This document shows positions 80 to 45,816 of a stretch of DNA of 64,000 bases, one piece after another (within the stretch, counting starts at the first letter, position 1; every line of letters begins with the position of its first letter). The DNA lies in contig NZ_KK073874.1 of the NCBI RefSeq assembly GCF_000585375.1, positions 1,550,001-1,614,000 of the forward strand. Direction: 5' to 3'. The DNA is from Cryptosporangium arvum DSM 44712. GTDB taxonomy: Bacteria; Actinomycetota; Actinomycetes; Mycobacteriales; Cryptosporangiaceae. A model generated the notes under the pieces. The model ran no database searches. It had not been told where the DNA came from and was given only the letters and a program-made list of their open reading frames with translations. A program made the translations under genes and the position numbers.

Positions 80-1510
80 CTATCGGCCCACTTGATCGGG
101 GCGATCGTCCGAGCGCGGACGCGACGTACCGTACTCCGCCGACGGGTAGTGGCCACCGGCCCGGGGGTCGGGATTCCGACCCTGCGGTCCGTACTGCTGC
201 GGCGGGTACTGCCGGGGGTCGTACTGCTGCGGAACCTGCTGGCGCGGATCGCCGTACCGCGGGTCGGGGGCGTACCGGGGGTCGCCCCCGTAGGGCTGCT
301 GATTGCCGTACTGGGCCGGGGCCGGGGCCGGGGCGGGGGTCGGCGGCATCGGCGGTGACTGGGGGGCCGCCTCGGCGGCAGCACCCGGCTGGAGCGGCGC
401 GGCCAGCACCTTCACCTTCCCGGGTACCAGCTCGGGCTTCCGCCGCGCGGCGACGTCCTCCACCCACCCGAACGCCAGCACGAAGACGCCGACGAGCACC
501 CAGGTCAGCGGGAACCAGGCGACCCAGATGTCGATCCCGAACTGCTCGAGCACGGTCATCGCGATCAGGATCGCCGCGTTGTGCCAGAGGTAGATCGTCA
601 CCGCGCGGGAGTTGAAGATCGTGATGATCCGGTCGATCACCGCGTGGCGCTGCAGCCACTCCATCCGCGACGAGTAGCGCATCAGGATGAACACGACGCC
701 GAACGAGTAGAGCGCGAGCGTGAGGCTGCTGTTCTCCACCGACCAGGCCTTGCGGCCCTCCTCGAGCGCCTCGGCGTTACCCGGCCCGGCCAGCCAGCCG
801 AGGCCGGCGGCGATCACCACGCCGCCGATCGCGAACAGGGCCGGCAGCGGCAGGCGCTTGATGATGCCTTCGGCGTGCGCGAACCCGATCAGCCAGCAGC
901 CCAGGTACACGAGGACGTCGTTGAACGTGCTGCCCCACCAGTCGTCCAGCGGGAGGATGCCGACCTCGGCCAGGCCGAGCAGAGCGAACGGCAGGGCGAG
1001 AACCAGCCACGGCACCTTGCGGAACGGCTTGAGCAGCAGCGGCGACAGCGCCACGAACCACAGGTACGTCTTCAGGTACCAGAGGACGCCCCACGCGACC
1101 TCGCCCCACTCGCTGCCCGGCGGGTCGCCGACCGGCAGCAGCCAGAACGCCAGCTGCCAGAGTGGGGAGTCGCCGTTGGCGCCGTAGCTCCACTCCCGCG
1201 GTGCGCCGTCGTGCCAGATCATCAGCGGGATCCAGATCGCGCCGAAGGCCCAGACCACCGGGAGCAGGCGGCGGAACCGGCTCTTGATCGCGGCCAGCGC
1301 ACCCTTGTCGATCGAGCGCACCATGAGCGTTCCGGCGAGCGCGAACATGACGCCCATCGCGGGGAACCAGGGGAAAATGGCGAAGCCGAACGCGTGGTAG
1401 GTGACCACTCGGATGATCGCGACCGCGCGCAGCGTGTCGAGATAACGGTCGCGGCCCTTTGCGGGGGTCGCCTTCGGCGCGGGCGCAGGGGCAGTCACGG
1501 ACACGAGCAC
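80..1510 (-). CDS. Membrane acyltransferase, acyltransferase-3 (OafA-like) family, paralogue A
   Basis: This 476-residue integral membrane protein belongs to the acyltransferase-3 family, which moves acyl groups from a cytoplasmic donor to an extracytoplasmic sugar, glycan or lipid. The family signature is near the N-terminus: RYLDTLRAVAIIRV followed by TYH, with the conserved His at about residue 39. About ten hydrophobic helices follow up to about residue 355. The last 110 residues are a proline, glutamine and tyrosine-rich tail (repeats such as QYGNQQPYGG) that looks disordered and cytoplasmic. The start is GTG at 1510 with no strong ribosome binding site; a second in-frame GTG lies two codons downstream. 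The gene is divergent from ndk and homologous to the genes at 2220-3869 and 3934-5421. The acceptor substrate cannot be read from sequence. Confidence 0.88.
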   Translation of the reverse strand: MLVSVTAPAPAPKATPAKGRDRYLDTLRAVAIIRVVTYHAFGFAIFPWFPAMGVMFALAGTLMVRSIDKGALAAIKSRFRRLLPVVWAFGAIWIPLMIWHDGAPREWSYGANGDSPLWQLAFWLLPVGDPPGSEWGEVAWGVLWYLKTYLWFVALSPLLLKPFRKVPWLVLALPFALLGLAEVGILPLDDWWGSTFNDVLVYLGCWLIGFAHAEGIIKRLPLPALFAIGGVVIAAGLGWLAGPGNAEALEEGRKAWSVENSSLTLALYSFGVVFILMRYSSRMEWLQRHAVIDRIITIFNSRAVTIYLWHNAAILIAMTVLEQFGIDIWVAWFPLTWVLVGVFVLAFGWVEDVAARRKPELVPGKVKVLAAPLQPGAAAEAAPQSPPMPPTPAPAPAPAQYGNQQPYGGDPRYAPDPRYGDPRQQVPQQYDPRQYPPQQYGPQGRNPDPRAGGHYPSAEYGTSRPRSDDRPDQVGR

Positions 1511-1738
1511 ATGTTCCGGGAATGAGATGAAGTTTGGATGAGGAGAACAACTTCGGTTTGCTGCGAATGTTCACAGCCGTGCGGACATATCACGTGAGTG
1601 ACCCCAGACCGCCGCCCGATCGGGGGTGTATGAGAGCGGAGTCACGCGGACGGTACGCTGCGGTGACGGGTCGACGCGCCTCCGCTGCCGGTGTTCACAC
1701 CCGGCCTCCGCCCCCCATCTGAACGAGGAGTCATCCCT
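1511..1738. promoter_or_regulatory. Divergent intergenic region between acyltransferase A and ndk
   Basis: These 228 bases separate two divergent genes and must hold promoters in both directions. An exact 8-bp palindrome, TCACGTGA, lies at 1590-1597. A TACGCT at 1654-1659 is a possible -10 box for ndk, but no convincing -35 hexamer accompanies it. The ndk ribosome binding site is GAGGAG at 1725-1730. No open frame here looks coding. Confidence 0.4.
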
Positions 1739-2146
1739 GTGTCCGAGCGCACGCTGGTTCTGATCAAGCCCGACGCGGTCCGCCGCGGCCTGATCGGGGA
1801 GGTGCTCGGGCGATTCGAGCGCAAGGGCCTGAGCATCGACGCGCTGAACCTGCGCACGGTCGACGCCACGCTCGCCGACGAGCACTACGCCGAGCACCTC
1901 GAGCAGCCCTGGTACCCGCCGCTGCGTGAGTTCATCACGTCCGGTCCGCTGGTGGCGCTCATCCTCTCCGGCGACGAGGCGATCTCGGTCGTCCGGACGC
2001 TCATCGGCGCCACCGACGGCCGCAAGGCCGCAGGCGGCACGATCCGCGGTGACTTCTCGCTGTCGAACCGCGAGAACCTCGCGCACGCGTCGGACTCGCC
2101 GGAGTCCGCTGCGCGCGAGATCAAGATCTGGTTCCCGGAGGCCTGA
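1739..2146 (+). CDS. ndk: Nucleoside diphosphate kinase
   Basis: Nucleoside diphosphate kinase moves the gamma phosphate of ATP onto NDPs through a phospho-histidine, balancing the NTP and dNTP pools in the cytoplasm. The protein has 135 residues, the usual bacterial length. It begins SERTLVLIKPDAVRRG, and the active-site His116 sits in NLAHASDS. I chose GTG at 1739 because GAGGAG lies eight bases upstream; an ATG-type frame opening at 1691 would add 16 residues the family does not have. The gene stands alone on its strand between two acyltransferase paralogues and ends just before a strong inverted repeat shared with the convergent gene. Confidence 0.97.
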   Translation: MSERTLVLIKPDAVRRGLIGEVLGRFERKGLSIDALNLRTVDATLADEHYAEHLEQPWYPPLREFITSGPLVALILSGDEAISVVRTLIGATDGRKAAGGTIRGDFSLSNRENLAHASDSPESAAREIKIWFPEA

Positions 2147-2153
2147 GCCTCCC

Positions 2154-2208
2154 ACCGACGAACGAGGCCGCATCACGCTCCGAGCGTGATGCGGCCTCGT
2201 TCGTCGGT
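2154..2208. terminator. Perfect 26-bp inverted repeat between convergent genes
   Basis: Two perfectly complementary 26-base arms (2154-2179 and 2183-2208) are separated by only CCG. The hairpin lies between the ndk stop (2146) and the stop of the convergent acyltransferase (2220), so it probably terminates both. It has no long T-run, as is common in actinobacteria. The perfect stem is much longer than most terminators. Confidence 0.8.
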
Positions 2209-2219
2209 GAAGCCCGGGC

Positions 2220-3869
2220 TCAGTGCCGGCTGCGGCGCGGTTCCTCCGGCTGTCCCTCGGCCGGCGGGCGCTGCGCCGGGTAGCCGTTCCGGCGCGGCGG
2301 CTCGCGACGGGCCTCGCGGTACGCCTCGCTGTAGTCGGCGGTGGGGTGGTTCGCCACGTTGCGGTACTCGGCGTTGTAGTCGGCGGTCGGGTGGTCGTAA
2401 CCCCCGAGCGGTGCGCCGTACTGCCCGGTCTCGTACTGCTGGTACCGGTGCGCGTCCGGCGTTCCGTGGCCGTTCTGCGGGTGCCCGGCCGGCCCGGCGG
2501 GGCGCTGCTGCGGGTACCGGTCGGGCTGGGTGTACTGGCCCTGACCGTACGGGTCGGGCCGTCCGTGCTGCTCCGGGCGGCCGTACCGGTCGTCGGGCCG
2601 GCCGTACCGATCGGGCGCACCGTACTGGTCCGGCCCGCCGTAGGGGCGTTGATCGTCGCCGGGACGGGCGGCGTTCGCGGCCACCGGAGCCGGGGTGTCC
2701 TCCGCCGCCTTGGCGGCCAGCTCGGCGGCGTGCTCCGCGCGCCGTTCCGCCGCCGACGGCCCCACCGGGAACAACCGCGGTTTGCGCCGAGCCGCCAGGT
2801 CCTCCACCCACCCGAACGCCAGCACGCACAGCGCGACGAGCACCCAGACGGTCAGGAAGTCCCAGGCGGGGTTCTCGACCAGCCCTTCCGGGAGCCAGCG
2901 GGTCAGCCAGTCGTCGATCGGGTACGACGCGTCGATCATCACGTTGTGCCAGAGGTAGATCGTCACGGCACGGTTGTTGACGAGCGCCACCAGCCGGCCG
3001 AGGAACGGTGTCCGGCCGATCCAGCTGGCGTCGGGAGCGAAGCGCAGCAGCGGGATGATGACCGCGATCGACCACAGGGCGTTGGCCAGCGGGATGCCGT
3101 TGAGGTCGTAGGCCTCGCCGGCGTCCGCGTCCTGCGCGGGGTGCCCGAGCGCCCAGGCAATACCACCGATCGCGCACGCCGCCACGAGGGCGATCAGCGC
3201 CGGCATCGGGACCTTCTTCAGCTTGCCGGTGCGGTGCGCGAACCCGAGCATCCAGCACGGAGCGAACATGCCGAGCGTCGAGACGAGGTCCCACAGGTTG
3301 CCCTCGTCGGGCGAGGGCAGGACGCCGAAGGCCTGCAGCAGCACGAGGCCGAGCGGCGCGACGAGCGTCGGGACCGGCCACTTGCGGAACGCCTTGAGCA
3401 GCAGCGGGCTGAGCGCGACCAGCCACAGGTAGGTGCGCAGGTACCAGAGCACGACGGTGAAGTTCGTGCCGAACTCGTTGCCGGGCGGGTCGAAGATCGG
3501 CACCACCCAGAAGATCAGCTTCCAGAACGGCACCGGTTCGCCGGTGTTCGGGTCGGTCCAGTTGGAGAAGGCACCACCGCCCCAGATCATGACCGGGATG
3601 ATGATCAGGCCGAACAGCCACAGGGCCGGGAGCAGCCGCCGTGCCCGGTTCTTGATCACGGTGAGCGGAGGCTGTTTGTCCAGCGAGCGCACCATCAGAC
3701 CGCCGGCGAGCGCGAACATCACGCCCATCGCCGGGAAAAGCCAGCTCAGCCAACTGCCGCCGAACGTGTGGTACGTGACCACCCGGATGATCGCCGCCGT
3801 GCGGAGGGCATCCAGGTAGAGCTCACGGTTCGGGCGCTTGGTGGGGCGATCGCTCACACCCGAGATCAT
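2220..3869 (-). CDS. Membrane acyltransferase, acyltransferase-3 (OafA-like) family, paralogue B
   Basis: This 549-residue polytopic acyltransferase is closely related to the gene at 80-1510. It has the signature ELYLDALRTAAIIRVVTYH with the conserved His at about residue 34, and shared helix patterns such as VLWYLRTYLWLVALSPLLLKAFRK. The membrane domain ends near residue 365. The last 180 residues are a long tyrosine, glutamine and glycine-rich tail (PDRYGRP- and YNAEYRNVANHPTADY-like repeats). The start is ATG 3869, preceded by GGAGAG with a 6-base spacer; the frame upstream has no acyltransferase similarity. It lies 64 bases downstream of paralogue C on the same strand and may be co-transcribed with it. 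The likely role is acylation of a cell-envelope glycan or secreted metabolite; the substrate is unknown. Confidence 0.88.
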   Translation of the reverse strand: MISGVSDRPTKRPNRELYLDALRTAAIIRVVTYHTFGGSWLSWLFPAMGVMFALAGGLMVRSLDKQPPLTVIKNRARRLLPALWLFGLIIIPVMIWGGGAFSNWTDPNTGEPVPFWKLIFWVVPIFDPPGNEFGTNFTVVLWYLRTYLWLVALSPLLLKAFRKWPVPTLVAPLGLVLLQAFGVLPSPDEGNLWDLVSTLGMFAPCWMLGFAHRTGKLKKVPMPALIALVAACAIGGIAWALGHPAQDADAGEAYDLNGIPLANALWSIAVIIPLLRFAPDASWIGRTPFLGRLVALVNNRAVTIYLWHNVMIDASYPIDDWLTRWLPEGLVENPAWDFLTVWVLVALCVLAFGWVEDLAARRKPRLFPVGPSAAERRAEHAAELAAKAAEDTPAPVAANAARPGDDQRPYGGPDQYGAPDRYGRPDDRYGRPEQHGRPDPYGQGQYTQPDRYPQQRPAGPAGHPQNGHGTPDAHRYQQYETGQYGAPLGGYDHPTADYNAEYRNVANHPTADYSEAYREARREPPRRNGYPAQRPPAEGQPEEPRRSRH

Positions 3870-3933
3870 TGATGTCTCTCCATGAGGGGATCGTGAGAAG
3901 CCAGGGGCACCTGTGGAGCGATTCAGGTGCAAA

Positions 3934-5421
3934 TCAGGAGCTCGTCCGGACCGGGGCGTCCTGCCCGGGGAACGCCGACCAGGCCACCTCGCGGACGAGC
4001 AGCGTCGTCGGTGCGACACGCACCTCACCACCGGCGATGCCCACCGCGTGCACGATCCGGACCGGACGGCTCTCCTCGGCCGGGAACTGGTCGGCACGCA
4101 GGAGGCGCAGCGCCCACGGATCGGCCGGCTCCGGCGCGCGCGTGGCCGGGTCGTCGCCCCCGACCGCGTCCGGCACGGTCGTCTCGGGGTCGGGAGCGGT
4201 GACGGCGTCGGTGACGCCATCGGTGGCCGCGGGAGGCGCGCCCGTCGGGGGCCTCGTGCGCACCGGTCCGCGGAGGGATGACAGCGGCGGCTCGGCCGGG
4301 AGGCGGGGGAGCAGCGTGGGCCGGCGGTCGGCCGACACGTCCTCGATCCAGCCGAACGCGACCACGCCCAGACCGACGAGCACCAGCGCGAGAACGAAGC
4401 ACGCCGCGGTACCCGCCGCGGTGCCGAGCCCCCAGACGCCGAGCGCGGAGCCGATCGGAAAACTGAGCGCGAGCGCGACGTTGTGCCACAGGTAGATCAC
4501 CATCGCGCGCCGGTTGACGATCATGACCAGCCAGTTCGCCGGTAGGTACGGCCACCACCGCCGCTCCAGACCGGCCCACGCCGGTGCCGGGCGGAGCAGG
4601 AGCAGCACGGTGCCGGCCGAGAACAGCAACTGCGCGAGCGGGATCAGGTTCAGGTCCACCGAACCGGACGCCGGGTGGGTGAACGCCCAGACGACGCCGG
4701 CGACCGCGAGCACCGAACCGGCGACCAGCACGGTCACCCGACGGGCGTGCGCGATCCACTCGTCGCGGTGCGCGAAACCCAACAGCCAGCACGGCAGGTA
4801 GATCGAGGCGTCGCGGACCACCGCACCGAACCGCTCGCCGAGCGTCCACACGTCGAAGAGACCGGTTCCGATCGCGACGGCCACCGTGGCCGGGACCAGC
4901 ACCGTCATCCGCGGGAAGCGCCGAAACAGCGGCAGCAGCAGCGGTGAGAGCAGCAGCAACCACAGGTAGGTCCGCAGGTACCAGAGCGGTTCGGTGAGCG
5001 CGCCGGCCCAGTCCGCGCCCGGTGGGTCGGAGAACGGCACCACCCAGAACAGCAGTTCCCAGCGCGCCTCCGGACGCCAGCCGAAGCCCACCATCACCGG
5101 TACCGCCAGCGCGGCCGTCGCCCACAGCGGCACGAGCAGACGCCGTAGCCGCCGGCCGACCGCGCGGCGGGTGGAGGTGTCGAGCGAGCGGGCGGTCAGC
5201 GACCCCGCGATCGCGAACAGCAGCCCCATCCGCGGCCAGTACGAGAAAACTGCCAGCGGGAACATGTGGTACAGCACGACGTACGCGATGCACGCGGCGC
5301 GCAGGACGTCGAAGTAGCGGTTCCGATCGCGGGGCGGAGCCTTCGAGGGTTGACGGACCGTCACGTGAACGCGCGTGGGGGGAGCGTCGACGACAGGCTT
5401 CGCGGGGGCTAAAGCGGTCAC
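3934..5421 (-). CDS. Membrane acyltransferase, acyltransferase-3 (OafA-like) family, paralogue C
   Basis: This 495-residue polytopic acyltransferase is the first gene of the minus-strand pair C-B. Its signature is RYFDVLRAACIAYVVLYH with the conserved His at about residue 52, followed by about ten hydrophobic helices. It shares with paralogues A and B the segments EPLWYLRTYLWLLLLSPLLL and AMVIYLWHNVAL. Its last 130 residues differ from the other two: there are no tyrosine repeats, and an acidic Pro/Ala linker leads to a more ordered-looking end (RLLRADQFPAEESRPVRIVHAV). The start is GTG 5421 and its ribosome binding site is weak. Tail divergence with a conserved catalytic domain suggests old tandem duplication followed by different targeting or partner choice. 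Confidence 0.87.
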   Translation of the reverse strand: MTALAPAKPVVDAPPTRVHVTVRQPSKAPPRDRNRYFDVLRAACIAYVVLYHMFPLAVFSYWPRMGLLFAIAGSLTARSLDTSTRRAVGRRLRRLLVPLWATAALAVPVMVGFGWRPEARWELLFWVVPFSDPPGADWAGALTEPLWYLRTYLWLLLLSPLLLPLFRRFPRMTVLVPATVAVAIGTGLFDVWTLGERFGAVVRDASIYLPCWLLGFAHRDEWIAHARRVTVLVAGSVLAVAGVVWAFTHPASGSVDLNLIPLAQLLFSAGTVLLLLRPAPAWAGLERRWWPYLPANWLVMIVNRRAMVIYLWHNVALALSFPIGSALGVWGLGTAAGTAACFVLALVLVGLGVVAFGWIEDVSADRRPTLLPRLPAEPPLSSLRGPVRTRPPTGAPPAATDGVTDAVTAPDPETTVPDAVGGDDPATRAPEPADPWALRLLRADQFPAEESRPVRIVHAVGIAGGEVRVAPTTLLVREVAWSAFPGQDAPVRTSS

Positions 5422-15358: not shown

Positions 15359-15520
15359 GGTTCGGAACTCCCCGTAAGACGAGTGGTCAGCGTACCGAGG
15401 AGAACTCTGGTGCCTTCCGGGCTCGAGCGGATCCTCAGTTCGTGCCAGACGCGGCGAGCGGCCGGCCGTGCGCCGGTGCCGGAGCGCCACCAGGTAAGCG
15501 TGGCCTAACGTGACCGGTCG

Positions 15521-15526
15521 TAGAGT
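15521..15526 (+). promoter_or_regulatory. Probable -10 box of a leaderless promoter
   Basis: TAGAGT fits TAnnnT and ends six bases before the GTG start at 15533. There is no ribosome binding site in the gap, so a leaderless transcript is likely. Confidence 0.5.
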
Positions 15527-15532
15527 GGGCGC

Positions 15533-15970
15533 GTGGCCGCCGACTTCGAATACTTCGTCGCTTCTCCCGACCGGATCGCCTCGCTCGACCTGGGTCGCAG
15601 CCCCGCGAGCCAGTTGCCGTCGGCGACGGCCGCCGACCTGCCCGGCGTCGACCCGGCATTGGTGCTGTTGGCGTTGGTCGAGGTGCTCAGCACCGAGGAG
15701 TACGAGGCGCTGCTGGCGAAGGGGCCCGGCGAGGTCGTGCACGACGGCGGCGACGCGGGGCCCTGGGTCATCGCGATCGACGATTTTGTGGTCGCGGCGA
15801 TCCAAGGTGCCGACGGCGATCCCGAGATGGAGTGGGACGACGCGGTCGCGCTGTGGAGCGGGCTGACCGAGCTCGACGAGGGCACGTTGCTCGAGACCAC
15901 CGACGAGCTGCGCCGACTGTGCGGTCACGTCGACGCGGAGCACCGGCTGTACTGCTGGGCGAAGCATTAA
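15533..15970 (+). CDS. Small acidic hypothetical protein
   Basis: I do not recognise this 145-residue, acidic, soluble protein (no signal or membrane segment). It contains VDPALVLLALVEVLSTEEYEALL and EMEWDDAVALWSGLTELDEG, both likely helical, and ends CGHVDAEHRLYCWAKH with two Cys and two His residues that could bind a metal. GTG 15533 follows a -10-like TAGAGT by six bases, suggesting leaderless expression. Its stop codon lies in a pair of TTAAA-containing direct repeats just upstream of the serine hydrolase gene. It may share that gene's regulatory region; function is unknown. Confidence 0.72.
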   Translation: MAADFEYFVASPDRIASLDLGRSPASQLPSATAADLPGVDPALVLLALVEVLSTEEYEALLAKGPGEVVHDGGDAGPWVIAIDDFVVAAIQGADGDPEMEWDDAVALWSGLTELDEGTLLETTDELRRLCGHVDAEHRLYCWAKH

Positions 15971-15988
15971 AGGTGCCTTAAACGGTGC
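15967..15988. repeat. Pair of 11-base direct repeats upstream of the serine hydrolase
   Basis: TTAAAGGTGCC (15967-15977) is followed directly by TTAAACGGTGC (15978-15988). The 11-base period is close to one helical turn, as in sites for regulators that bind one DNA face. The first copy includes the stop codon of the gene at 15533-15970. Function is inferred. Confidence 0.45.
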
Positions 15989-15999
15989 AACCGACGGCC

Positions 16000-16046
16000 T
16001 TCTCCTCACTTATGTGGACGCTCAACGTCCACATAAGTGAGGAGAA
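16000..16046 (+). promoter_or_regulatory. Perfect 21-bp palindrome that contains the ribosome binding site of the serine hydrolase
   Basis: Arms 16000-16020 and 16026-16046 are exactly complementary around the loop CTCAA. The ribosome binding site GAGGAG (16039-16044) is wholly inside the right arm, and the start ATG is at 16050. Any transcript begun upstream would fold the site into a 21-bp duplex and block translation; a transcript begun inside the palindrome would not. It could be a translation switch, an RNase III target, a terminator of the upstream gene, or a DNA operator. Confidence 0.75.
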
Positions 16047-16049
16047 CCA

Positions 16050-17462
16050 ATGCGAGGTCGCCAATGGGGCGTCGCCGTCTTGCTCGGCGCGCTGGTGATC
16101 AACGGGGGAGGTGTTGCAGTCGCCGCCGAGGAAAGTAGCGGAGGGCGTTCCCCGGCCGCCGACGCACGACTTGCCGCCGCACTCCAGAAAGCCGTCGACG
16201 GACAGAAGTTCGCCGAGGTGCTCGACACGGTGCCGCCGTCGACGTCCGCGGCCAAGGAGCTCTACCGCACCGAACTCGCGCCGGACGACAAGGGCCGGTC
16301 GGCGGCGTCCGCCAAGCTCGCCGCCGCCGCGGCCCCGATCCACCAGACACCGCAGCTCGACGCGACGGTCATCAAGCTCGACCGGGCCGGACGGCCGATC
16401 GCCGCGGCGGACGTCATCCTGAGCCCGCAGTACCCGAACGGCAAGATCATCCCGCTCGACGCGAACCTGACGACCGACCAGGTGCGCTGGCGCCAGTGGG
16501 ACGACGCGACCTGGGACAACGGTGCCCGGGGCACCGTCGACATCGTTCCCGGCCGGGAGAACGCCCCGGTCGACTTCATGTCGCCGTACCCGGCGTCGGT
16601 GCTGAAGCTGATGGTCGGCTTCGGCATCCTCCGGATGGTGGACGCCGGCGAGCTGAGCCTCGACGACACGTACACCTACACGCCGGTCGGGACGCCGAGC
16701 TCGCTGTGCGGTGGCGCGCGGGCGGCCACGTCGATCACCCAGCTGTTCGACGAGATGATCACGGTGTCGTCGAACCCGTCGACGTGCGCGCTGATCAAGC
16801 TGATGCACGAGCGGGGCAAGATCGACGGGCTCAACCAGCAGTTCGTCGACCTCGGCCTGCCGACGCTGCGGGTGAAGGGCACCAACCCCAACACCGGGGG
16901 CACGTGGGCGAACGCGGTGACGATGAGCTCGATCGACACCGCCAAACTGCTCCTGCTCTTCAACGGCTCCCCGGGGACGCTCTGGAAGACGCCGTCGGGG
17001 ACGCCGGTGAACGCGTCGGTGCTCAGTGCTTCCTCGCGTTCGTACCTGCTCGGGAAACTGGGCGAGCAGGGGCTCAACCAGGTGCTCTCGACCACGAACT
17101 ACTGTGGGCGCGCCTACCCGCCGCCGGGGATTCCGCAGGTGACGCCGTCGCGCTGGATCGACCCCGCGACCGGGGTCGTGTCGGTGGCCGGACGCAACTA
17201 CGGGCAGGACGTGCGGCCGTGCAACGCGGCGGCGACCGTGACGTTCGCGCACAAGACCGGGCTCGCCGACACGTCGGGTAACGACGCGGGCATCGTGAAG
17301 TCGCTGCCGGGCAAGCCGTTCCGCTCCTACATCGTGTCCGTGCACTCGAACCTCGGGTACCGGTACGTCGACGCGGACCGGCCCGCGGATCCGGCCGGGG
17401 TGTACCCGGTCCAGTACACCGAGAAGCTGGCCCTCCTGGGCCGGGCGATCAACGCGCTGTAA
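16050..17462 (+). CDS. Secreted serine hydrolase, class A beta-lactamase-like fold
   Basis: This 470-residue exported protein of the penicillin-recognising serine hydrolase family carries an N-terminal signal peptide (about 1-26: basic start, VAVLLGALVINGGGVAVAA, likely cut after AVAA). Catalytic motifs are SVLK (Ser183, Lys186), an SDN-like SSNPSTC at about 241-247, and KTG in HKTGLADTSG at about 401. This set fits beta-lactamase-type or D,D-peptidase-type enzymes of the envelope; the long N-terminal region and four cysteines suggest a housekeeping hydrolase more than a dedicated resistance enzyme, but activity cannot be told from sequence. ATG 16050 has GAGGAG five bases before it, buried in a perfect palindrome, so translation is probably controlled. 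Confidence 0.88.
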   Translation: MRGRQWGVAVLLGALVINGGGVAVAAEESSGGRSPAADARLAAALQKAVDGQKFAEVLDTVPPSTSAAKELYRTELAPDDKGRSAASAKLAAAAAPIHQTPQLDATVIKLDRAGRPIAAADVILSPQYPNGKIIPLDANLTTDQVRWRQWDDATWDNGARGTVDIVPGRENAPVDFMSPYPASVLKLMVGFGILRMVDAGELSLDDTYTYTPVGTPSSLCGGARAATSITQLFDEMITVSSNPSTCALIKLMHERGKIDGLNQQFVDLGLPTLRVKGTNPNTGGTWANAVTMSSIDTAKLLLLFNGSPGTLWKTPSGTPVNASVLSASSRSYLLGKLGEQGLNQVLSTTNYCGRAYPPPGIPQVTPSRWIDPATGVVSVAGRNYGQDVRPCNAAATVTFAHKTGLADTSGNDAGIVKSLPGKPFRSYIVSVHSNLGYRYVDADRPADPAGVYPVQYTEKLALLGRAINAL

Positions 17463-17469
17463 CCGGACG

Positions 17470-17497
17470 GGGTGCGGGGTTCACGCCCCGCACCCCG
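17470..17497. terminator. Hairpin terminator between convergent genes
   Basis: An 11-bp GC-rich stem (17470-17480 with 17487-17497) lies between the stop codons of the serine hydrolase (17462) and the convergent DUF885 gene (17503). It can serve both strands. Confidence 0.8.
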
Positions 17498-17502
17498 ATT
17501 CG

Positions 17503-19188
17503 CTAGGCGGCTTTCGACGCCGCGATCCACCGGTCGACGACGTCGGCCAGGACGGCCAGGGGGAGCGAACCCCCGGCCAGGACCACGTCGTGGAAGGCCG
17601 AGAGCTCGAAGGAATCACCGAGCTCCTTCGTGGCTCGGGCCCGCAGCGACTGGATCTCCAGCCGGCCGACCATGTACGACAGCGCCTGCCCGGGATACGC
17701 GATGTACCGATCGATCTCGGTCGCGCACTCCTTCTCCGACACCGGCGTGTGCGTGAGCATCCAATCCAGCGCCTGCTGCCGCGACCACCCCATCGCGTGG
17801 ATCCCGGTGTCCACGACCAGCCGTCCGGCCCGCCACGAATCGGTCGCGAGTACCCCGAGACGCGCCACGTCGTCGGAGTACAACCCCATCTCGTCGGCCA
17901 GACGCTCGCAGTACAGCCCCCACCCCTCGGCGTAGGCGGTGTCGTTGAGCAGCCGCCGCGCCAGCGGCAGCGCGGTGAGCTCCTGGGCCAGCGAGATCTG
18001 GAAGTGGTGCCCCGGCACGGCCTCGTGGAACGCCACGACCTCGGCCATGTGCCGGTTGCGCTCGGTCGGCGCCGACGTGTTCAGGAAGTAGGTGCCCTTC
18101 CGCGACCCGTCGATCGCCCCCGGCAGGTAGTACGCCGGCGGCGCACCCGGTGCCGCGGCCGCCGGAACCGGTTCCACGACGCACTCGGTCGAGGGGAGAC
18201 GCCCGAACCAGCCCGGTGCGGCCGCCCACGCCCGGTCGACGGCGGACCGCGCCTGCGCGAGCATCTCCTCGCTGTCGGAGTAGCGCAGCGCGGGGTCGGT
18301 ACGCAGACGCCGGAAGATCTCGGTCTGGTCGCTGGTGCCGAAGACCCGGCTGCCGGTCTCGGCGTACTCCGCCTCCAGCGCGCTGATGATCTGCAGGCCG
18401 ACCTGGTGCAGCTCCTCCGGCGTGCGGTTCGTGGAGGTGTGCTTGCGCGCCAGCGTCGCGTAGATCCGCTCACCGCCGGGTAGGTAGGTGAGCCCCACCC
18501 GGTCGTCGGGGCGGCCGGCCGGCAGCATCTCGTCGCGCAGCAGATCGCGGTAGGTGGTGAGGGCGGGAACCACCGCCTCGGCGAGCAACCGATCGCGTTC
18601 GGTGGCGAACGCCTCCTGGTCGGCGACGCCGGGGCCACCGGCCACCCGCAGGCCCGAGAGGTCCTCGTCGGCGAGCACCCGGTCGAGGTGGTCGATCGCG
18701 GCCCGCACCAGCGACGCGATCGGCACCCGACCGGCCGCGACGCCTTCCCGGTGCCGCTCGCCGACCGCGGCGAAGTACGACGGGAACTGCCCGAGCCGGG
18801 CCAGGAAGCCGGCCGCCTTCTCCGGCGTGACCAGCGGCACGCGGGGCAGCAGGTCGATCAGCGTGGCCGCGGGGGCCACGAAGAAGTCGGTGATCGTCCA
18901 CTCGACCGTGCGCAGCTCGGAAACCTCTCTCGTGGTGCCCGCGACGTGCGCCACGAAGTCCCGGGTCTGCCGGTCGGTCTCGCTCGTGACCTCGAGCGCG
19001 GCGGCGCGATCGGCCAGGTCACCGAAGAGGGCGCCGTAGCGCTCCTCGGCCGCCAGCGTCATGTCGGCCAGGCCGTCGTCGTAGCCGGGCAGGCCCAGGA
19101 GCGACGCGCCGAGGGGATCGGACTGACATACCAGCTCGAGCAGCTCATCAGCGAGTGAGGAAGCCGTTACGGAGGGATCGAGAGTCAC
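17503..19188 (-). CDS. DUF885 family protein, probable zinc-dependent hydrolase
   Basis: This 561-residue soluble protein of the DUF885 family is mostly helical. A metallopeptidase-like signature HEAVPGHHFQ (about 387-396) is followed by YAEGWGLYCE (about 417-426), which together look like the HExxH-plus-Glu zinc site of gluzincin peptidases. A peptidase or dipeptidase role is the usual inference for the family, though few members are studied. The start is GTG 19188; no clear ribosome binding site is seen, but it begins only 15 bases after the PlsC-like gene, so translation may be coupled. It is third in the minus-strand set patatin, PlsC-like, DUF885. Confidence 0.88.
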   Translation of the reverse strand: MTLDPSVTASSLADELLELVCQSDPLGASLLGLPGYDDGLADMTLAAEERYGALFGDLADRAAALEVTSETDRQTRDFVAHVAGTTREVSELRTVEWTITDFFVAPAATLIDLLPRVPLVTPEKAAGFLARLGQFPSYFAAVGERHREGVAAGRVPIASLVRAAIDHLDRVLADEDLSGLRVAGGPGVADQEAFATERDRLLAEAVVPALTTYRDLLRDEMLPAGRPDDRVGLTYLPGGERIYATLARKHTSTNRTPEELHQVGLQIISALEAEYAETGSRVFGTSDQTEIFRRLRTDPALRYSDSEEMLAQARSAVDRAWAAAPGWFGRLPSTECVVEPVPAAAAPGAPPAYYLPGAIDGSRKGTYFLNTSAPTERNRHMAEVVAFHEAVPGHHFQISLAQELTALPLARRLLNDTAYAEGWGLYCERLADEMGLYSDDVARLGVLATDSWRAGRLVVDTGIHAMGWSRQQALDWMLTHTPVSEKECATEIDRYIAYPGQALSYMVGRLEIQSLRARATKELGDSFELSAFHDVVLAGGSLPLAVLADVVDRWIAASKAA

Positions 19189-44684: not shown

Positions 44685-45816
44685 GCGTAAGCCTCGGGTC
44701 TGGTCGTATTGTGCTGGCAGGTTCCGGCGATGGCGGGATGCTCTCGTGCGAAACACTCTCGTCGAGCAGCGCACATCGCGCGCCCACCGCGCGAATAGCC
44801 AGGCTACCAGCTACGCCACGATGGGTTCAAAACGCCCGCTCGCCTCGTGCACCAACCGGCAACATTTCTGGGCCTCCATCGCCCCACTCCGTGCCGCCAC
44901 GAATGTCTCCCCAGCTCGGAGTTCTCCCAGCCCCGGCACTTCTCCGGCCCCGCGACACCCCGGCGCGTCCCCAAGGCCGGCGTCTCCCTAGGCCCGGCAC
45001 CACCCCAAGGCCGGCATCTCCCCGGGCCCGCCACCTTTCGGCCCGGCACGTCCTCAGGCCTGGCACCTGGCGGGCCGCACATCCCGAGGCCCGGTACATC
45101 CGAGCGCCTCGGATGTACCGGGCCTCTCCGGGCGCCGGGCACCTCCGGGCCCGGCCTACGGCACTGCGGCGCCTCCTCCGGATCCCGTCACCTCCCCAAG
45201 CGGCCGGGCCCCGGCACATCTCCGGCCTACGGCACCTCCCCGAGCTCTCGGATCCCGGCACCTCTTCGGGTCTCGGCACCCTCCTCGGGTTCCGGCACCT
45301 CTTGGGCTCGGGCACCTCACCCTGCTCGGGCACCTCACCCTGCTCGGGCACCTCACCCTGCTCGGGCACCTCACCCTGCTCGGGCACCTCACCCAGTCCC
45401 CTGCACCTCACCCAGTCTCCGGCACCTCTTGGGTCCCGGGCATCTCTTCAGGCTCCGGTGCCCCTCCCACCCCTGCGCGAACTATCGCCGCCCTCTGGGT
45501 CCCGCCCCCTCATCGCGCCCCGTTCCTGCGCCCGTCCTCGCCGCCCCGTTCCTGCGCCCGTCCGCGCGTCCCGTGCCTGCGCCCATCCCAACGCGGGCCG
45601 TCACCACCCTTTACGCCCCGCCCTGCCCGAGCTGTCACCGCATCTGCCGACCCGATTCGTCTCGGGTGGCCGCTGCGGTAGGGCGCGGGAGACGACTACC
45701 TCCGGCCCGTGGGAGAATTGGGGTGGTGCCGACTCATGCGTCGGTGAACCGGTGCGCCGGGCAGCACGAACAGCCCCGCACCACTCAACGTCTTATAGGA
45801 AGAGAGGGACACCCGC
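44685..45816. other. Long C-rich repeat region between rpsT and lepA
   Basis: 1.1 kb with no believable gene. From about 44890 to 45440 the top strand is built of degenerate words such as CCCGGCACCTC, GGCACCTC and GCCCGGC, ending in an exact 18-bp tandem array (45309-45398). Open frames of several hundred codons cross it on both strands, but their translations are repeats (GTSPCSG, RHLP) without family signatures. The final 300 bases before lepA are less repetitive and hold no clear feature except the lepA ribosome binding site. Confidence 0.65.
45309..45398. repeat. 18-bp tandem repeat, about five copies, intergenic
   Basis: CGGGCACCTCACCCTGCT occurs four times exactly (45309-45380) and a fifth time with changes. 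It is the most regular part of the C-rich region between rpsT and lepA and does not encode protein with a start signal. Confidence 0.88.

Follow-up and report, generated by a model that had tools for sequence, protein, structure and literature searches.

Which role can be assigned to an inverted repeat that is exact along its whole length and that lies directly over the ribosome binding site of a gene? This question is raised by a locus of Cryptosporangium arvum DSM 44712 located in the 64,000-nt stretch of DNA analysed here (the window), where such a repeat precedes the gene of a putative secreted hydrolase.

The inverted repeat and the genes around it

The arms of the repeat occupy positions 16000-16020 and 16026-16046 of the + strand. 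Each has 21 nt, they are 100% complementary, and the 5 nt that keep them apart form the loop CTCAA (16021-16025). The Shine-Dalgarno (SD) sequence GAGGAG (16039-16044) lies inside the right arm, and the left arm would mask it in RNA. It is followed by AACCA and then by the ATG at 16050, a spacing of 5 nt. The arms and the coordinates given in the initial annotation, which had described an exact 21-bp palindrome with the whole GAGGAG in its right arm five bases before the ATG, were confirmed.

The predicted RNA fold of 15990-16070 had an energy of -44.7 kcal/mol, compared with -21.8 (sd 2.97) in 200 dinucleotide shuffles, none of which was as good (0/200; z = -7.7). By our own arithmetic, at the 71% GC of this genome, a perfect 21-bp arm with a loop of 3-12 nt is expected about 5e-5 times per 744 kb. 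Furthermore, when up to 3 mismatches were allowed, no copy of the arm sequence was found in the 9,195,993-bp genome beyond the two present here. Given the shuffled folds, the expected count and the single occurrence, the 21-bp hairpin is not due to chance.

Perfect hairpins are frequent in this genome: a sample of 744 kb (the window together with 34 further stretches of 20 kb each; arms of at least 14 nt, loops of 3-12 nt) contained 31 of them, two others having arms of at least 21 nt. The combination of an SD-like motif in an arm with a correctly spaced start codon of a GC3-rich frame was observed solely at 16000-16046 (1/31). It should be mentioned that in 21 of the 31 cases (a raw count), the present one included, a GC3-rich frame ends no more than 40 nt upstream of the hairpin. 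Here the hairpin lies 29 nt behind the stop of an ORF of 145 aa (15533-15970, + strand), which is the usual spot of perfect hairpins in this genome and speaks against a function in the leader of the hydrolase gene. Because of this proportion, a real rival is that we are dealing with the 3'-end hairpin of the 145-aa gene, which would end or protect its transcript and would cover the next SD merely through the proximity of the genes. However, no T run follows the repeat (the search for intrinsic terminators, that is, a GC-rich hairpin plus a T run, gave 0 sites in 15400-17600), the stem reaches the SD and ends near the ATG at 16050, and the hairpin of a related genome (G002, described below), though shorter, still lies on the SD. 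We consider this origin unlikely.

In the whole window, Rfam 15 at the gathering score gave 0 matches to riboswitches, thermometers or other families. An RNA thermometer is unlikely, since the 21-bp stem is perfect and its predicted energy is -37.4 kcal/mol at 37 C. Two other perfect inverted repeats with a 3-nt loop were observed in the window. One of them (2153-2209), with 27 bp the longest of the 31 sampled hairpins, is flanked by two convergent frames, whose stops are 6 and 10 nt away, and has no T run after it; around the other (45086-45126; 19 bp), no GC3-rich frame was found to end at a distance of up to 40 nt.

The gene covered by the repeat (16050-17462, + strand) encodes a serine hydrolase of 470 aa that belongs to the Pfam family Beta-lactamase2 (PF13354; 58.1 bits, cut-off 22) and, judged by eye, has a signal-peptide-like N-terminus. 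Its score against NCBIfam NF033103 (class A beta-lactamase), 24.7 bits, was far from the cut-off of 200. The stretches S183-K186, S240-N242 and 402-404, which we take to be the SxxK, SxN and KTG motifs, respectively, are invariant across the four aligned hydrolase sequences. The start codon is well placed, because the frame stays open for just about 3 codons upstream of the ATG at 16050 (473 versus 470 codons). A PDB sequence search with the hydrolase gave no match, and the structure predicted from a four-row alignment (mean pLDDT 37) was too poor for use. The potentially harmful cell-wall activity that the initial annotation attributed to this Beta-lactamase2-family protein is a conjecture.

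Four genomes of the genus were compared: the present one (G000), G001, G002 and G003. Orthologues of the hydrolase with 85% identity are found in G002 and G003, which share 91% with each other, and G001 carries just a relative with 45% identity. The 145-aa ORF, which has no Pfam or NCBIfam match, precedes the hydrolase gene in the same order in two of the three other genomes (G002 and G003); G001 has no match to it. Two paralogues of the hydrolase, with 62% and 51% identity, are present in the C. arvum genome.

Accessibility of the SD sequence in the predicted leader RNA

Transcripts arriving from upstream had been proposed to have a closed SD, and the predicted folds agree: in the full leader, with both arms, all six SD bases were paired with a probability of 1.0. 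When the 5' end was placed at about 16003, the mean SD pairing was 0.83, and from about 16007 onwards the SD became freer, with a mean of 0.38-0.64. This decrease is in line with the further proposal that transcripts begun inside the palindrome are free, but neither a TANNNT hexamer nor a sigma-70-type match was found for a start at such a position.

Opening of the SD was predicted to cost 12.5-14.6 kcal/mol, which ranked 1-2 among 112 scorable genes (364 kb) over seven leader lengths; the single gene placed above the hydrolase, at 85 nt, is a repetitive and doubtful ORF. Over the SD of the other genes of this set, perfect helices (loop 3-12) did not exceed 6 bp. These ranks depend on a crude gene caller and SD picker, which left as scorable 112 of 283 ORFs in this genome, 99 of 226 in G002 and 78 of 162 in G003.

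We propose that the palindrome acts in the leader RNA, as a hairpin by which the translation of the hydrolase is damped on transcripts begun upstream, and we assign to this reading a probability of about 0.55. Any transcript starting upstream of about 16003 would carry both arms, and their pairing would enclose the SD within a helix of 21 bp (about -37 kcal/mol). The loading of ribosomes would then take place only if the hairpin were cut, if it were opened by a factor, or if the left arm were missing from an RNA begun inside the repeat; as for the cutting, a perfect helix this long would suit RNase III. The main effect would be to damp the read-through from the 145-aa gene, a possible source of such transcripts, and from any promoter present in the TTAA block described below. 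A guard against read-through expression, as the initial annotation suggested, is a possible function; it could also be compatible with a 3'-end hairpin and with the DNA-level element considered in the next section. Against the leader lock, it has to be considered that the hairpin would never form if the 5' end of the RNA fell within the left arm.

The idea of a translational lock is already known, since sigG of Bacillus subtilis and gene e of phage T4 are precedents for it. The feature that characterizes both, an SD inside a stable helix with the leader upstream, is found here by prediction. In the case of sigG, the report (PMC5942855) describes a large hairpin on the read-through transcript coming from spoIIGA-sigE, plus a smaller hairpin at the ribosome binding site, which provides a precedent for SD sequestering. 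According to the same report, sigG has its own promoter, and the transcript made from it forms no large hairpin, whereas at the present locus the -10 and sigma-70 scans found no such promoter; in addition, the gene controlled here would be that of a secreted hydrolase in a high-GC bacterium. For gene e, it is reported (PMC3014915) that the SD is sequestered in the long early transcripts, which yield about 100-fold less lysozyme, and that late transcripts, whose start falls in the region encoding the 5' strand of the stem, lack that 5' part and are well translated. A further likeness is that the T4 product acts on the cell wall. The late promoters and the 100-fold effect are reported for T4; in C. 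arvum the lock is a fold prediction and the enzyme is beta-lactamase-like. The RNA switch in the 5'-UTR of mycobacterial rpfB (PMC6009663) resembles the present case in that a secreted cell-wall enzyme of a high-GC Gram-positive bacterium is under leader-RNA control, and differs from it in being a candidate transcriptional attenuator or riboswitch rather than a perfect hairpin covering the SD. We found no published description of the hairpin studied here in the open-licence literature on SD-covering repeats, read-through hairpins, terminators, RNase III and leaders. If the stem truly shuts the SD, it would represent a high-GC Gram-positive counterpart of the read-through locks of sigG and gene e, placed on a secreted beta-lactamase-like hydrolase. 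It would also suggest that perfect hairpins behind genes can silence the next gene once they reach its ribosome site.

The TTAA block and the search for a promoter

Tandem TTAAA repeats just upstream of the palindrome had been put forward as a possible site for a regulator. The copies are present at 15967-15971 and 15978-15982, and they form part of a block of tandem TTAA repeats (15967-15992, + strand; TTAAAGGTGCCTTAAACGGTGCAACC) that has here a period of 11 (TTAAAGGTGCC / TTAAACGGTGCA) and that could be an operator or a promoter part. G002 and G003 carry a counterpart of the block at the corresponding position, and its gapped pattern occurs once per genome in three of the four genus genomes, G001 being the one that lacks it. 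This conservation is not explained by coding, since the block lies downstream of the preceding stop codon in both G002 and G003. Its maintenance in place, as seen in the sequence comparison, supports a role for the block, the regulator itself being putative. With the strict patterns used, no further site that would indicate a wider regulon was found in the genome of C. arvum or in the four genus genomes.

On the + strand of this genome, no TANNNT hexamer is present within 520 nt upstream of the hydrolase start, and a promoter scan, which covers the sigma-70 type alone, gave no match. The sole TANNNT within the same 520 nt in G002 and G003 is TAAAGT, inside the TTAA block, with a best -35 match of 2/6. 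Since this hexamer lies upstream of the hairpin, a promoter there would put the whole hairpin in the leader.

The conserved block also suggests a different reading, in which the repeat works at the DNA level as an operator or as part of a promoter. Transcription would then initiate within the loop or directly downstream of it, possibly aided by an activator bound to the TTAA repeats, and the mRNA would lack the left arm and have a free SD. Apart from the position of the block, this is favoured by the motif GTGGA...TCC(A/G)C, recognized by eye in all three leaders, by the left-arm sequence CCTCACTTA, which is common to G002, and by a TTAAC palindrome of G002 and G003 (by eye), which suggests that a palindrome covering an SD may serve as an operator. 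Nevertheless, neither a -10-like hexamer nor a sigma-70 match was found, and the distance between GTGGA and TCCRC, measured by eye in the three leaders (9, 1 and 9 nt), would be odd for a single protein site. The outer stem of G002, moreover, is asymmetric as DNA, with two bulges on one side. We regard an operator or promoter element as a doubtful alternative.

In G003 and G002 (L063, about 338-423, + strand; L069, near 13554, - strand), the TTAAC-rich palindrome just cited overlaps, by eye, the SD of an ABC-transporter-like gene, and it looks like a repressor operator.

Leaders of related genomes and origin of the symmetry

The perfect 21-bp repeat is missing from the leaders of G002 and G003, the two close orthologues. 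In G002 the SD is covered by a different stem, CCTC-A-CTTA-C-ACAGTGG / CCGCTGT-TGAG-GAGG, with 15 pairs and two bulged bases; by eye, it differs from the stem of C. arvum in changes to G-U pairs and in the addition of ACA/UGU on both sides. Its local fold has an energy of -18.1 kcal/mol (2/500 mononucleotide shuffles were as good), and the SD opening energy, 9.6-10.9 kcal/mol, ranks 2-7 of 99. G003 has a longer leader, of 122 nt; its local fold places the SD in a helix (3/500 shuffles as good), and the SD bases are paired at 0.54-1.0 in the full leader. The opening energy is ordinary there (1.6-4.8 kcal/mol, rank 32-67 of 78), and the structure is truncated when the leader length taken is below about 135 nt. 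When the lower of the two opening energies was taken, the hydrolase was first among 43 G000-G002 orthologue pairs; with the lowest of three, it was merely ninth among 24 orthologue triples. An extra stretch in the G003 leader (L005, 1371-1440) contains two strong hairpins. It was considered as a mobile repeat and rejected, since a single copy was found in G003 and no copy in the three remaining genomes of the genus.

The conserved pairing that the initial annotation recommended looking for in homologues is thus present as a strong but different hairpin in G002 and is unremarkable in G003. It had also named, as an argument against its proposal, that close relatives might lack the repeat while their start codon is unchanged; this holds for the exact repeat and does not hold for the SD pairing of G002. 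That G003, the sister of G002, is devoid of strong SD coverage weighs against the leader lock, as does the restriction of the exact repeat to one species in a comparison of three leaders. Since the corresponding SD of G002 is covered by a stem of its own, the pairing of the SD probably predates the perfect repeat.

How the arms became exact can be approached through the same leaders. The left arm aligned with the G002 leader over its whole length (1/500 shuffles as good) and weakly with that of G003 (54/500), and the right arm aligned with the G003 leader by its outer 10 nt alone (GTGAGGAGAA; 4/500) and weakly with that of G002 (148/500). This pattern is compatible with a CCTCA/TGAGG stem that was at first imperfect and in which the inner half of the right arm would have been copied anew from the left arm via template switching, and the exact symmetry probably arose by replication template switching between imperfect arms. 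The direction of the copying is uncertain, because the alignments of the left arm to G003 and of the right arm to G002 are weak. Template switching has been reported to create and repair RNA stems, perfect ones included, by reverse-complement copying of one arm (PMC8794818); the cases described there are RNA genes, whereas ours is an mRNA leader judged from two relatives.

From these alignments it could be argued that the repeat is a mutational by-product, perfected by a template switch and of little effect on expression. The perfect repeat is confined to one species, each arm finds its good match in a different relative, and perfect hairpins are common in this genome. The uncertain direction of copying weakens the argument, though, and G002 retains strong SD coverage through a different stem; besides, a fold of -37 kcal/mol over the SD should matter if it is transcribed. 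We find this explanation quite improbable. A broader view would join both lines: selection would maintain the pairing that locks the SD, and replication template switching would renew its sequence again and again (a perfect 21-bp stem in C. arvum, 15 pairs and two bulges in G002, an enlarged leader with several hairpins in G003), the lock being released by RNase III or by an internal transcription start. As a whole we hold this combination to be speculative and unlikely. If the leader lock proposed above is true, the locus would offer a compact test case for template switching that makes and maintains regulatory hairpins.

More distant homologues show no similar structure, which is a further point against the lock. 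L006 has no arm of at least 10 nt upstream of the start among the repeats listed, and in L026 a 10-bp repeat includes the start codon but pairs with coding sequence. The only named protein relatives found in genome contigs, L026 (Microlunatus) and L027 (Fodinicola), are by their sequences too distant to share the leader. In L027, from Fodinicola feengrottensis, apparent frame breaks, which may be sequencing errors, affect some members of a tandem array of Beta-lactamase2-like genes at positions 599-4797.
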